Part shown: in pieces, positions 989 to 9,847 of the stretch
How the letters are laid out: each line of letters opens with the position of its first letter
Numbering within the stretch: position 1 is the stretch's first letter
Source: Nitrospirota bacterium
GTDB lineage: Bacteria > Nitrospirota > Nitrospiria > Nitrospirales > Nitrospiraceae
NCBI GenBank assembly: GCA_020028595.1
Contig: JAIBHQ010000011.1
Location: 1-10,936, forward strand
Length of the DNA: 10,936 bases
Reading direction: 5' to 3'
Position numbers and translations under genes: made by a program
The notes under the pieces: model-generated
Seen by the model: the letters and a program-made list of their open reading frames with translations, nothing else
What the model was told of the DNA's origin: nothing
Databases searched by the model: none

Positions 989-2185
989 ATGGATCATCAC
1001 AAACTCATCGCCGACATCCGGCGGGCCGTGCAAGAGACGTCCGGTCTCGACGGCTGGCTGTTTTATGATTTTCGCCACAGCGACCCGCTGGCCTACCGCG
1101 TGCTGAAGCTCGATCCAACCCGCCACGTCACGCGCCGCTGGTACTATTGGATTCCCGCGCGGGGCACACCCGTCAAGCTGGCGCATACGATCGAGCCGCA
1201 CGTACTCGATGAACTCCCCGGCAAGGCCGTCCTCTATGCGGGCTGGGAGGAGCAGCAGGCCGCGCTCAGACGCATCCTGCAAGGCGCGGTGCGCGTGGCC
1301 ATGCAATATTCGCCGCTCAATGCCGTGCCCTATATCTCGCGGGTGGATGCCGGCACCGTCGAGCTGCTCAGGGGTTTCGGCATCGAGATCGTCACCTCGG
1401 CGGATCTCGTCCAGCGGTTCGAAGCCGTGTGGGACGACCGCCAGTTGGCCTCGCACAAACACGCAGCGACAAAGCTCCGCCGCATCGTGGATGAAGCCTT
1501 CGCGCACGTGCGGAGGTCCATTGCGACTCGAAAGACTGTCACCGAATACGACCTCCAGCAATTCATCATGAAGCGATTCCAGGCGCATGGGCTCATCACC
1601 TCGTCGCCCCCCATCGCTGCCGTCAACGCCCATAGCGCCGACCCGCACTACAGTCCGGCCCCGAAGGGGTCTGCGCGGATCAAAAAAGGCGACCTGGTGC
1701 TGATTGACCTGTGGGCAAAGAAGCCGGCCGCGGGCAGCGTCTACGCCGACATCACCTGGACCGGCTTCGTCGGCACGGAGGTTCCGGTACGGCAGCGCGA
1801 GGTCTTCACCATTGTCCGTGATGCGCGGGATGCAGCCTTGAATTTCGTCCGCGCACAGGTCTCCTCCGGCTGGTTTCCCTGCGGGTGGGAAGTGGACGAC
1901 GTCTGCCGGAACGTCATCCGCAACGCCGGCTATGCCGACCGTTTCGTCCACCGCACCGGACATTCCATCGGTGAAGAGGTCCACGGCAACGGCGCCAACA
2001 TCGACAACCTCGAGACGAAGGACGGCCGCCGCCTTGTGCCCCGGACCTGTTTTTCCATCGAGCCGGGCATCTACCTGCCCGGCGAGTTCGGCATCCGGAG
2101 TGAGCTGGATGTGTACGTCTCGGACCGCGAGGCCCACGTTTTTGGCCGGCCGGTGCAGATGGAACTCGTGCCGATCCTGAAATAG
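989..2185 (+). CDS. M24 family metallopeptidase (Xaa-Pro aminopeptidase-like), 398 aa
   Basis: This is a pita-bread-fold, two-metal peptidase that should remove N-terminal residues, typically before proline, in the cytoplasm. The N-terminal domain (about 1-150) is the creatinase-N-like half. The catalytic domain (about 155-398) keeps all five expected metal ligands: D240 (LIDLWAKK), D254 (YADITWTG), H325 (HRTGHSIG), E358 (SIEPGIY) and E372 (RSELDVYV). The substrate-side histidines H220 (ADPHYSP) and H332 (VHG) are also present. VHG replaces the more usual VHE/VHD. The length is normal for the family and no export signal is seen. The start at 989 is supported by the promoter 6 nt upstream; there is no Shine-Dalgarno site. 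The exact substrate (Xaa-Pro peptidase, creatinase-like or other M24 member) cannot be fixed from sequence alone. The gene is apparently monocistronic and ends before a heptamer-type inverted repeat. Confidence 0.9.
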   Translation: MDHHKLIADIRRAVQETSGLDGWLFYDFRHSDPLAYRVLKLDPTRHVTRRWYYWIPARGTPVKLAHTIEPHVLDELPGKAVLYAGWEEQQAALRRILQGAVRVAMQYSPLNAVPYISRVDAGTVELLRGFGIEIVTSADLVQRFEAVWDDRQLASHKHAATKLRRIVDEAFAHVRRSIATRKTVTEYDLQQFIMKRFQAHGLITSSPPIAAVNAHSADPHYSPAPKGSARIKKGDLVLIDLWAKKPAAGSVYADITWTGFVGTEVPVRQREVFTIVRDARDAALNFVRAQVSSGWFPCGWEVDDVCRNVIRNAGYADRFVHRTGHSIGEEVHGNGANIDNLETKDGRRLVPRTCFSIEPGIYLPGEFGIRSELDVYVSDREAHVFGRPVQMELVPILK

Positions 2186-2193
2186 TTGTCGGC

Positions 2194-2251
2194 AATCAGC
2201 CATCCGCTTTTAGCATTGAAAAGTCCGACGCTGACGGCTGAGGGCTGATAG
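2194..2251. repeat. heptamer-type inverted repeat between the M24 gene and tatA
   Basis: The right side has three tandem 7-bp units starting at 2230, 2237 and 2244: GCTGACG, GCTGAGG, GCTGATA. The left side (2194-2207), read on the other strand, gives GCGGATG and GCTGATT. These match the last two right-hand units at 11 of 14 positions, so a roughly 14-bp stem is possible. It lies 8 nt after the M24 stop and 10 nt before the tatA -35, so it could end the M24 transcript. No clear T-tract follows. The unit sequence differs from the repeat at 347-438. Confidence 0.6.
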
Positions 2252-2260
2252 CTTGTTTGC

Positions 2261-2290
2261 TTGACACCACTCTCCTGCGACCGATAGCAT
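2261..2290 (+). promoter_or_regulatory. promoter of tatA, likely leaderless
   Basis: A consensus -35 TTGACA (2261-2266) and a -10 TAGCAT (2285-2290) are 18 nt apart. The -10 ends 6 nt before the ATG at 2297, the same distance as in the M24 gene. No Shine-Dalgarno sequence is visible. Confidence 0.55.
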
Positions 2291-2296
2291 CATATT

Positions 2297-3169
2297 ATGT
2301 TCGGGACAATGGGCTTCTCAGAGTTGATCATCATTCTGGTGATCGTGTTGATCCTCTTCGGATCCAGCCGCCTGCCCGCGTTGGGTGAAGGCGTCGGCAA
2401 GGCGCTCAGGGGATTTAAAAAGGCGGTGCACGAAGAGCCGCCGCCGCCCGACCCGAACATGCCGAATCCTCAAGCAGCCGGTGCGCCGCCTCCGATCGAA
2501 GAAGCCCAAATCGTTCCTCAGGCGCCTTCAACTCAAACTCCGGCACCCCAGACTTCGGCGCATGCGCCGGCTGCCGCCGCGCCGGCCGTCGCATCAGGCA
2601 GTCGCCTTACTCTGGCAGCCTATCACCCGGGGTCGGAAGCAACGCCCGGCACGACCGCTGCCCTCATGGCCTCCGCCACGCCACAGGCCTATCAGCCGAA
2701 ACAGGCTCCACCCAAACCCGCGGCGCCTGCCGGACAGCCGGCACCGACGCAAGGCTACCCCTCGTACCAACCGCCGACGATGGAAGATCGCGCGGCAAGT
2801 CCCGCGCCCGCGATGCGCGCCCAGTATCCGCCTCTCCCGCCGACGGCGCAGACCAAACCGCAGGCCAAGCGTGCCTCGGCGATCGTCAACAAGGATGCCG
2901 TCGCCAGAGTGCAGGCTCAACAAGCGGCCCTTAAGGCAAAAGCCGCACAGCCCGCGCCGGCCTCCTCCGACATGCAACACTTCGGCGAAGGGCTTGGCGA
3001 TGCGCTCCGCACGTTTCGTCAGGCCGTCAACGATGTCCGCTCGACGGTGGACCCGCAGATGCGGACGATCCAGGCTGAAATCGACGCCGCGCAGAAAGAG
3101 ATCGAACAAACCGTCGAAAATGCCAAGCAGATGCCGTCCGTCCAGGAAGAGCCGCCGAAGCCCTCGTAA
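2297..3169 (+). CDS. tatA: Sec-independent (Tat) translocase subunit TatA with long C-terminal tail and duplicated amphipathic helix
   Basis: TatA proteins assemble with TatBC in the inner membrane to let folded twin-arginine substrates cross. Here residues 7-22 form the single transmembrane helix (FSELIIILVIVLILFG), followed by the hinge GSSRLP and the classic amphipathic helix (about 27-46). TatA proteins are usually 60-100 aa, but this one is 290 aa. Residues 47-225 are a Pro/Ala/Gln-rich, probably disordered linker. Residues 229-246 (FGEGLGDALRTFRQAVND) then repeat the first helix (29-46, LGEGVGKALRGFKKAVHE) with 10 of 18 identities. Residues 252-278 look like a charged coiled coil. The start at 2297 is fixed by the transmembrane helix beginning immediately after it. 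No tatB or tatC is adjacent. The HEAT-repeat gene follows 14 nt downstream and is probably co-transcribed. A TatB-like role cannot be excluded, but the N-terminus (GFSELIII) reads as TatA/E. Confidence 0.88.
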   Translation: MFGTMGFSELIIILVIVLILFGSSRLPALGEGVGKALRGFKKAVHEEPPPPDPNMPNPQAAGAPPPIEEAQIVPQAPSTQTPAPQTSAHAPAAAAPAVASGSRLTLAAYHPGSEATPGTTAALMASATPQAYQPKQAPPKPAAPAGQPAPTQGYPSYQPPTMEDRAASPAPAMRAQYPPLPPTAQTKPQAKRASAIVNKDAVARVQAQQAALKAKAAQPAPASSDMQHFGEGLGDALRTFRQAVNDVRSTVDPQMRTIQAEIDAAQKEIEQTVENAKQMPSVQEEPPKPS

Positions 3170-3183: not shown

Positions 3184-3969
3184 ATGGTCTCTCGAACCCT
3201 CAGCGTGCACATCCTGCTGATCTTTCTCCTGCTCTCCGGCGGCAGCGGCTGCTACGGGAACCAGGCGGCTACAGACCCGAAATCCACCGCGGCTTCCCTG
3301 ATCGTGCTTCTTCAGGATCGCGATCCGCAGATGCGGGTCACCGCAGCGCAAGCGCTGGGGAAGATCGCCGTTCCGGATACGGCGCCGGCGCTGCTTCGCA
3401 GTTTGGATGATGCCGACCCGGCGGTGCGCGCCATGAGCGCGTGGGCTCTGGGCAGCCTCGGTGAGGATGTGCTGGATCAGGCTGGGTTGGAACTGGCCAA
3501 ACGGCTGGATGACCCGTCTCCAGCCGTCAAGCTGTCTTCCGCGCGCGCGCTCGGTGCCCTGGGTGGCACGCAGACGATCATCGAGCTGTTGACGGAACAG
3601 CTGGCACGATCGGACGTCGAAACCCGACGCGCGGCGGTGCAAGCGCTGACATGGCTCGAAGCAGGCTCCGCGTACCCTGCGCTGATCGCGGCCCTTGGCG
3701 ATCCCGACGCGCAAGTCCGGCAAGGAGCGGTCGCGGCCCTCGGCGAAATGGTCGATCCGCGTTCATTGCCGGCCATTCGCGATCGGCTCCTGAAAGACAC
3801 GGATGCCGGCGTGCGCGGAGAAGCGGCGTACCGGCTTGGAAAATTCGGCGATCGCACGATCGTCCCGGCGCTCCGATCGGCGTCCACCCGCGACCCCAAC
3901 GCCATCGTCCGACGCTGGGCTGAGTGGGCACTCGAGCAGATTGTGCCAGCCAGCCCTGATTATCCCTGA
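3184..3969 (+). CDS. HEAT/PBS-lyase-type repeat protein, probable lipoprotein, 261 aa
   Basis: Residues 1-22 are a signal sequence (hydrophobic HILLIFLLLSGGSG) ending at C23. GSGC is a weak but plausible lipobox, so the protein may be lipid-anchored; otherwise it is periplasmic. The mature part is an almost continuous solenoid of six to seven two-helix HEAT repeats from about residue 34 to 252. Typical units are DRDPQMRVTAAQALGKI, DADPAVRAMSAWALGSLG, DPDAQVRQGAVAALGEM and DTDAGVRGEAAYRLGKFG. Such repeats are binding scaffolds with no catalytic residues, so no reaction can be assigned. The original phycobilin-lyase name of this repeat class should not be taken as function. The gene starts 14 nt after tatA with no Shine-Dalgarno site, which suggests translational coupling or reinitiation. 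Its position after tatA hints at an envelope role but does not show a Tat role. Confidence 0.82.
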   Translation: MVSRTLSVHILLIFLLLSGGSGCYGNQAATDPKSTAASLIVLLQDRDPQMRVTAAQALGKIAVPDTAPALLRSLDDADPAVRAMSAWALGSLGEDVLDQAGLELAKRLDDPSPAVKLSSARALGALGGTQTIIELLTEQLARSDVETRRAAVQALTWLEAGSAYPALIAALGDPDAQVRQGAVAALGEMVDPRSLPAIRDRLLKDTDAGVRGEAAYRLGKFGDRTIVPALRSASTRDPNAIVRRWAEWALEQIVPASPDYP

Positions 3970-8355: not shown

Positions 8356-8438
8356 TGGTGCGAGAGGAGGGACTCGAACCCCCACGGTTTCCCACGAGAT
8401 CCTAAGTCTCGCGCGTCTGCCAGTTCCGCCACTCTCGC
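8356..8438 (-). tRNA. tRNA-Leu, anticodon UAG
   Basis: The acceptor stem GCGAGAG pairs perfectly with CTCTCGC, followed by discriminator A and an encoded CCA. The anticodon stem CGAGA/TCTCG closes the loop CTTAGGA, giving anticodon TAG, which reads CUA and, with wobble, other CUN leucine codons. The D-arm has GGCGGAA and the GG of the D-loop, the variable arm is 11 nt (short for a leucine tRNA), and the T-arm contains GTTCGAGT. Total length is 83 nt including CCA. It lies upstream of tig on the same strand, 93 bp away, and has its own promoter at 8512-8541. Confidence 0.96.
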
Positions 8439-8627: not shown

Positions 8628-8684
8628 ACTAAGGACATTCCGCACGGGCGCATGACCGGATGTTTGATGAGGCGGACCGGTTGG

Positions 8685-8712
8685 TTGTCCGGCTTCCTCT
8701 CTTCATTATTGT
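8685..8712 (+). promoter_or_regulatory. candidate promoter of the secreted HEAT-repeat gene
   Basis: TTGTCC (8685-8690) and TATTGT (8707-8712) are 16 nt apart, each matching four of six consensus bases. An overlapping TATTAT (8712-8717) lacks a -35. The segment 8691-8720 is locally AT-rich. TATACT at 8625-8630 is an alternative -10. Evidence is weak. Confidence 0.25.
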
Positions 8713-8770
8713 ATTATTCACCGTCCCTTCGCGCCGTTCCGCCAGCCCGTGCTTTCGAAAGGGGTGCCTC

Positions 8771-9847
8771 ATGAAGTGCGCCATGGCGATCGCCATCTTC
8801 ATTTCGCTGTTCATCTCATCGCAGGAAACCGGCTGGGCCTACCGGGACTACTTCACGGCCGAGCAGAAAAGCCAGTTGGCGAAAATTCAGACGGTCCTGG
8901 TGGAAGCCGTCGCGTTGACCGACAAGGGGGCGGTCGATGCCCGACCGATCCGCGAGGTGGTGGTCAACCGCCTCTCGGAACTGGACTACACCGTGATCAC
9001 CGACGGATCGAAACCGTACGATGTCATGTTCAAAGTGAAATGCGAGCAGCGCAAAACCTGGGAAGGCACGGCCACGGCCGGCGGCGACGCGGATCTTCCC
9101 GATTCGCCGTCGCGCGTCTGGAAGGGACCGGCCTGCCAGCTCAATTACACGCTGGGCAGCATGAAAATTAAGTGGCAAAAGGAAGTTCGCACCGACTTCG
9201 AAGATGCCATTACCGCCGCGCAGAAAGCCGGTGCCGGCGACCCCGGCAGCTACGCGATGGCGAAGCTGAAGGAACGGCTGGCGACCTACGACTTCCCGGT
9301 GATCGTGACCGCCGACTGGGGGCAGGCCGACCGCCTCTTGAAAGTGCTGGACAACTCCAAAAGCGATCAAATGCGCCGGCTCAAGATCATCTCGCTGCTC
9401 GGCGAGATGCAGGCCGACGCGGCACTCCCTCGCCTGAAGGAAGCGCTCAAAGACAAGGATCTGGCCAGACAGGCCGCCGAATCGATCGGCGGCATCGGGC
9501 GTGACGGCATTCCGCTCCTGGTCGACATCGTGAAAAACTCGCAGGACAACGACTTGCGCATCTCGGCCGTCAAAGGCCTCGGGCAGGTGGGGGGACTGCA
9601 AGGAGATACGACCGCTGTGCCACCCCTGCTCGAAATCCTGAATGATCCGAATACCGACTGGACGTTGCTGACGGAAATCGCCTGGGCGCTCGGCAAGATG
9701 CCGGACAAACGGTCAATCGAACCGCTCTACGCGCTCGACAGAAAGCTGCAGGCGATGCGCGACCCGGAGAACATGAAACTCAAGAAGCTCAAGGAAGCGG
9801 TGTTCTGGGCCATTAAGCAGTGCGACACGTGGGACCAATATAGCTGA
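8771..9847 (+). CDS. secreted HEAT-repeat protein with an unassigned N-terminal domain, 358 aa
   Basis: The start at 8771 is chosen because AAAGGGG lies 7 nt upstream and the protein then begins with a clean Sec signal peptide (residues 1-23, core MAIAIFISLFI, cleavage after GWA). An in-frame ATG at 8660 would add 37 unlikely residues. The N-terminal domain (about 24-180) alternates strands and helices (KIQTVLVEAVAL, REVVVNRLSELDYTVITD, PYDVMFKVKCEQR) and recalls small periplasmic alpha/beta domains; I do not recognise the family. C91 and C122 could form a disulfide. HEAT-type repeats fill about 185-350 (LKIISLLGEMQADAALPRLKEAL, DLRISAVKGLGQVG, LLTEIAWALGKMPDKRSIEPLY). The protein is likely a periplasmic scaffold or binding protein without visible catalytic residues. 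It is monocistronic and ends at a strong terminator shared with the converging regulator gene. Confidence 0.88.
   Translation: MKCAMAIAIFISLFISSQETGWAYRDYFTAEQKSQLAKIQTVLVEAVALTDKGAVDARPIREVVVNRLSELDYTVITDGSKPYDVMFKVKCEQRKTWEGTATAGGDADLPDSPSRVWKGPACQLNYTLGSMKIKWQKEVRTDFEDAITAAQKAGAGDPGSYAMAKLKERLATYDFPVIVTADWGQADRLLKVLDNSKSDQMRRLKIISLLGEMQADAALPRLKEALKDKDLARQAAESIGGIGRDGIPLLVDIVKNSQDNDLRISAVKGLGQVGGLQGDTTAVPPLLEILNDPNTDWTLLTEIAWALGKMPDKRSIEPLYALDRKLQAMRDPENMKLKKLKEAVFWAIKQCDTWDQYS

Follow-up and report, generated by a model that had tools for sequence, protein, structure and literature searches.

A long TatA of the Nitrospirales with a TatB-like helix at the end of a Pro/Ala-rich arm

The window analyzed here is a stretch of 10,936 nucleotides from a Nitrospirota bacterium (assembly GCA_020028595.1, contig JAIBHQ010000011.1), whose genome is an incomplete MAG of 1.3 Mb, 77% complete. 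The genes are arranged in the order 154-aa ORF (−), M24 peptidase, long tatA, HEAT-repeat protein and PilZ (−), followed by three genes on the reverse strand, which we take to encode ClpX, ClpP, and trigger factor. The long tatA ORF (2297..3169, +) encodes a protein of 290 aa with TatA profile matches at its N-terminus; TatA is one component of the Tat machinery, which exports proteins in folded form. Upstream of it, positions 989..2185 (+) encode an M24-family peptidase (PF00557, 2.9e-45); downstream, 14 bases past the tatA stop, positions 3184..3969 (+) encode a HEAT-repeat protein with a hydrophobic N-terminus (HEAT_2, 4e-41). The window also includes a second HEAT-repeat protein with a hydrophobic N-terminus (8660-9847, +) and a tRNA-Leu identified by ARAGORN (8356-8438, −). 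The 154-aa ORF (437-901, −), which gave zero Pfam matches at E 1, is kept near long tatA in loci of the families f1, f2, and f4 (f1 to f4 are anonymous family labels) and is an uncharacterized conserved protein.

By the curated cut-offs, the N-terminus of the long TatA is classed as TatA type and not as TatB type. It passes PF02416 with 66.3 bits (cut-off 21), whose profile covers residues 6-47, and TIGR01411 with 70.6 bits (cut-off 53.9), whereas the tatB model TIGR01410 gave the long TatA 38.5 bits, under its cut-off of 56.5. In addition, the protein reads FGSSRLP where the collected TatBs read FGP, presumably a TatB marker. Helix limits were taken from a low-confidence full-length AlphaFold2 model built from 4 sequences, which was used for this purpose only (mean pLDDT 49) and which predicts helices at residues 7-20, 26-45, and 199-217 and one long helix at 223-277. 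The first of these, lying inside the TatA profile match, corresponds to the membrane helix (residues 7-20; 2315..2356, +), and the second to the conserved first amphipathic helix, APH1 (residues 29-46; 2381..2434, +; LGEGVGKALRGFKKAVHE), with a hydrophobic moment of 0.66.

The second amphipathic helix, APH2, occupies residues 225-246 (2969..3034, +), of which residues 229-246 (2981-3034) read FGEGLGDALRTFRQAVND. Its moment is 0.64, and the top 12 hydrophobic moments of the protein, in 18-residue windows, all begin at residues 28-29 or 226-236. The first-pass annotation had presented APH2 as a copy of APH1, and its figures were recovered on recomputation: residues 29-46 and 229-246 are identical at 10/18 positions, 34 of the 54 bases are the same, and the two helix starts are offset by exactly 200 residues in this protein. 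The ungapped BLOSUM62 score of the pair is 54, against a maximum of 48 in 500 shuffles of the whole protein, from each of which the best 18-mer pair was taken; none of 3000 shuffled tails scored above 31 with APH1. Identity alone makes a weaker case, as 7/500 shuffles also reached 10/18 owing to the high Ala and Pro content of the protein. Among 57 relatives, APH1 and APH2 share 5 to 11 of the 18 residues. In the same proteins the helix-to-helix distance ranges from 173 to 207 residues and is exactly 200 in 1/57, so that a meaningful 200-codon spacing was rejected; the exact value is accidental.

Between the two helices lies a Pro/Ala-rich cytoplasmic arm (residues 48-224; 2438..2968, +), recognized by its mean column entropy and by the variable distance that it spans. 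In 57 distinct long proteins, drawn largely from the top-scoring matches rather than at random, mean column entropy was 0.38 bits over the membrane helix and APH1, 0.71 over APH2, and 0.86 over the helix that follows, against 1.75 in residues 48-110 and 2.08 in residues 122-158 of the linker. Two islands interrupt the arm. The first, residues 111-121 (PGxExTPGTTA; 2627..2659, +), is conserved, with a mean entropy of 0.36 in the 57 sequences, and the second, residues 191-217 (AIVNKxAVxRVQAQQA; 2867..2947, +; mean entropy 0.66), includes the predicted helix 199-217. In six species pairs, pN/pS was 0.01-0.13 for the tail (residues 225-278), 0.36-0.64 for residues 48-110, and 0.03-0.68 for residues 122-158, where the low value comes from one f2 pair. 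Since the tail has low entropy and low pN/pS while the distance varies, APH2 is under purifying selection and its spacing from APH1 is free.

APH2 is continued by a TatB-like helix (residues 247-278; 3035..3130, +), recognized by hhalign to the TatB coil and by the predicted helix 223-277. Short TatBs of the same bacteria were collected (19, two of them from f3), and their cytoplasmic alignment was compared with that of the tail by hhalign, which paired 50 columns without a gap (score 56.8, single-pair E 2.8e-10); reversed TatB scored 12.1 and 100 column shuffles 22.2 or less. Residues 247-282 by themselves matched the TatB coil with a score of 31.5 (single-pair E 9.5e-7), while 100 shuffles reached at most 16.6 and the reversed coil 9.9. 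Compared with the TatB of its own genome, the tail is identical at 12-18 of the 50 columns in 11 genomes. The helix described in the first-pass annotation as a coiled coil after APH2 forms a single module with APH2 and is not unrelated to it, because together they match the cytoplasmic part of TatB over the 50 ungapped columns. The AlphaFold2 blocks 231-280, averaging 64-75, are among the best-scored of the model and fit a prediction in which APH2 and the coil form one helix of ~55 residues.

These comparisons bear on an internal duplication of APH1, in which the protein would set two amphipathic feet on the membrane and the following helix would be a separate addition. Besides the 10/18 identity within the window protein, this origin is favored by the 18 APH columns of the 11 genomes, where APH2 shares 6-10 residues with its own APH1 vs 4-7 with its own TatB, and by hhalign of APH2 alone (residues 226-246), in which the protein's own N-terminus (30.8, E 9.7e-9) is preferred to TatB (16.5, E 1.4e-4), these being single-pair E-values and scores without a shuffle control. 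However, APH2 is equally near the short TatAs (30.9 in the same comparison; 6-10 of the 18 columns with the neighboring short TatA), and in G181, a genome of f2, these columns share 7/18 with TatB and 6/18 with APH1. Moreover, the match of the following helix to the TatB coil by itself is not predicted by a duplication of the amphipathic helix. We consider such a duplication rather unlikely, and a copy of APH1 as the whole story is not the best reading: the helix likeness stood, but the copy does not account for the TatB match of APH2 together with the helix after it. An APH1 duplication joined to a TatB-like coil may still underlie the tail, because the APH columns alone are nearer to TatA than to TatB.

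Another reading is convergence, in which an unrelated amphipathic or coiled-coil helix, serving as an oligomerization or scaffold arm, would only resemble TatA and TatB. The family models give this reading some ground. The isolated tail falls under every curated cut-off (tatB 15.0 vs 56.5 bits; PF02416 14.4 vs 21), and several unrelated coiled-coil families match it equally weakly. Among 24 tails, the NCBIfam TatA/E model PRK14857 matched 23 (best 7.1e-6), PF02416 19 and tatB 15, and DUF2383, an unrelated helical family, also matched 15 (best E 6.5e-4); single-sequence family matches therefore cannot decide the kinship of the tail. A sub-threshold PF02416 match lies at APH2 in 17/20 long ORFs from 22 scanned genomes (E 0.011-1.55), which speaks against convergence, but chance PF02416 matches of comparable strength occur elsewhere in these genomes. 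Convergence is further opposed by the reversed and shuffled controls, far under the real match of tail and TatB, by the APH1/APH2 score, out of reach of the shuffles, and by the PDB search (177635 sequences), in which the best match of the tail profile was TatB (9e03_B, E 0.0039) and the next was chloroplast TatA (E 0.51). Altogether, we regard convergence as improbable.

In the tail, the amphipathic helix runs on into a TatB-type hydrophilic helix, with APH columns that alone fit TatA better. Judged from sequence profiles, the tail is a cytoplasmic module of the TatA/TatB family, TatB-like over its whole length, and it may stem either from TatB or from the joining of a TatA helix with a TatB-like coil. 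An N-terminal membrane helix of its own was not found in the tail, which is preceded by the Pro/Ala-rich arm, with no AlphaFold2 helix at residues 168-198. In the three genomes checked, G181, G131, and G207, the tail profile gave a second match, overlapping the second gene of the short tatA-tatB pair.

Of the 235 genomes of the order Nitrospirales, 219 yielded the long form: 213 whole-protein matches (E 1e-25 or better, counted by hand, a few of them partial) and six ORFs holding both ends, all from f2 and of 272-285 aa. By family, it is present in 168/175 genomes of f1, 7/8 of f2, 0/4 of f3, and 44/48 of f4, the f3 genomes having short TatAs and TatB only, among the matches seen. Absence of the C-terminal helix from close relatives, which had been named as the outcome that would speak against a second helix, was not obtained. 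Among the genomes without the long form, G164, G078, and G154 carry fragments of the N-terminus (75, 61, and 78% identity) that lie at contig ends and may be cut long forms; G012, G071, G175, and G212 are 54-80% complete; and G057, G076, G196, and G227 are without it despite a completeness of 90-95%.

A tail profile built from 24 sequences was used to search 395 Nitrospirota genomes, and its matches were counted by hand in a listing taken as sorted by kinship. Among the 143 sampled genomes of the order, 138 gave a match with an E of at most 5.1e-23, and this result, with the high entropy of the linker, supports two amphipathic helices in a TatA with a single membrane helix, both of them kept among relatives while the linker varies. 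A strong match was found in 0/252 other Nitrospirota genomes, 31 of which gave weak matches (best 4e-10). Of 15 such weak-match loci outside the order, ten were examined, giving eight of TatB type, one of TatA type, and one odd. At locus L202, also outside the order, the ORF at 1480-2325 (+) begins with an amphipathic helix resembling that of TatA/B, has no membrane helix there, and continues without a frame change into a twin-arginine ferredoxin-like protein; the helix may belong to a small gene of its own that happens to share the frame. The search for the architecture covered Nitrospirota genomes, and the comparison beyond the phylum was made through the curated models and PDB.

The HEAT gene adjoins long tatA in 19 of the 21 loci tested in f1, f2, and f4, an arrangement which suggests that the HEAT-repeat protein after tatA is an exported partner. 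It has no match beside long tatA in L015 and L108, and an obligate partnership was therefore rejected. Among the 16 genomes without long TatA, 11 have some HEAT match at E 1e-10; the only close one is in G210 (3.7e-49; the others 1e-16 or weaker), where a tail-like piece of 25 residues adjoins the HEAT gene. The M24 peptidase was found beside tatA in the tested f1 loci that were long enough and in some f2 loci, and was not found in the tested f4 loci.

ORFs over the Pfam cut-off for TatA/B numbered four in 17 of the 22 genomes scanned, five in two, three in two, and two in one. The set typically comprises the long TatA, one short tatA-tatB pair, and a further short TatA; as an ordinary TatB is also present in these genomes, the tail is not needed as its replacement. 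Two TatC genes were detected in 29 of 32 order genomes searched, including f3 genomes without long TatA, and two tatC genes are already on record for Ca. Nitrospira defluvii (PMC3827258).

Nitrospirales include nitrite oxidizers (Nitrospira), for which Tat export of nitrite oxidoreductase has been proposed (PMC3578206). One reading would make the long TatA a subunit reserved for the export of this enzyme or its relatives. The f3 genomes, which are without the long TatA, also show 0/4 with a match to TIGR03479 at E 1e-50. On the other hand, seven genomes (G001, G008, G013, G169, G091, G180, and G182) keep the long TatA without such a TIGR03479 match, and this model is a broad proxy with zero matches over its cut-off in 34 genomes. 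The nitrite oxidoreductase link was left unsupported, and we hold it to be very improbable.

The long TatA shares with TatA/TatE (TIGR01411, PF02416) a membrane helix and an amphipathic helix over the curated cut-offs, but the short TatAs collected have 71-112 residues, while the long TatA, at 290 residues, includes a conserved arm and one more helix. Its tail aligns with the cytoplasmic helix of TatB (TIGR01410) but differs from TatB in being attached to TatA and in having no membrane helix. Escherichia coli TatE is short, without an arm or a second helix. It is a TatA-type paralogue described as behaving like TatB in the receptor complex and termed TatAB-type (PMC5777986); the likeness to TatB in a TatA-type paralogue is common to both proteins, but in the long TatA it sits in a separate tail. 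The construct TatB22-171, whose histidine patch was studied in PMC9436932, is likewise a cytoplasmic part of TatB without the membrane helix, but it is man-made and soluble, while the tail of the long TatA is natural and tethered to TatA.

Taking these data together, we see an about even chance that the long TatA is an order-specific TatA paralogue of the Nitrospirales, which presents a TatB-like helix on a Pro/Ala-rich tether of ~175 residues, probably at the TatBC receptor. In recent TatBC structures (PMC13323110), the core complex has a single TatA with two copies of TatB and three of TatC; the amphipathic helices of TatB span the cytoplasmic face of TatC and clamp the signal peptide, and that of TatA is mobile. 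For TatB without its membrane helix, chaperone-like activity in vitro is reported (PMC9436932). The long TatA would join the receptor through its TatA membrane helix, occupying the TatA site and adding an extra clamp or sensor. The arm would present the second, TatB-type helix, which would lie on either the membrane or TatC and might clamp signal peptides or probe folded cargo. A TatA-type subunit would thereby bring a TatB-like activity in cis. The long TatA could also serve one of the two TatC proteins; in the f3 genomes, two TatC occur in the absence of a long TatA. In its full form, a natural TatA-TatB hybrid in which a TatA membrane helix carries a tethered clamp or proofreading helix of TatB type, a subunit class through which the Nitrospirales translocase would bind or check cargo in cis, possibly for one TatC, we offer this scheme as a tentative possibility.

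The architecture had been called unusual and without a described case, and in fact no description of a TatA with a second amphipathic helix, or of a TatA-TatB fusion, was found in the open-licence PMC literature. The same holds for the long TatA in the Nitrospira and twin-arginine literature, as represented by titles and the starts of abstracts in open-licence PMC, and a term search of the main text of PMC12342949, on Nitrospirales genomics, found neither "TatA" nor "twin-arginine". What sets TatA apart from TatB is a live question. Each has a single membrane helix and a single amphipathic helix, yet tight substrate binding is supported by TatB and not by TatA (PMC13323110); the cytoplasmic part of TatB has been linked to folding quality control (PMC9436932). 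A conserved natural protein that combines the membrane helix of TatA with a TatB-like helix offers a way to ask which part gives which property.
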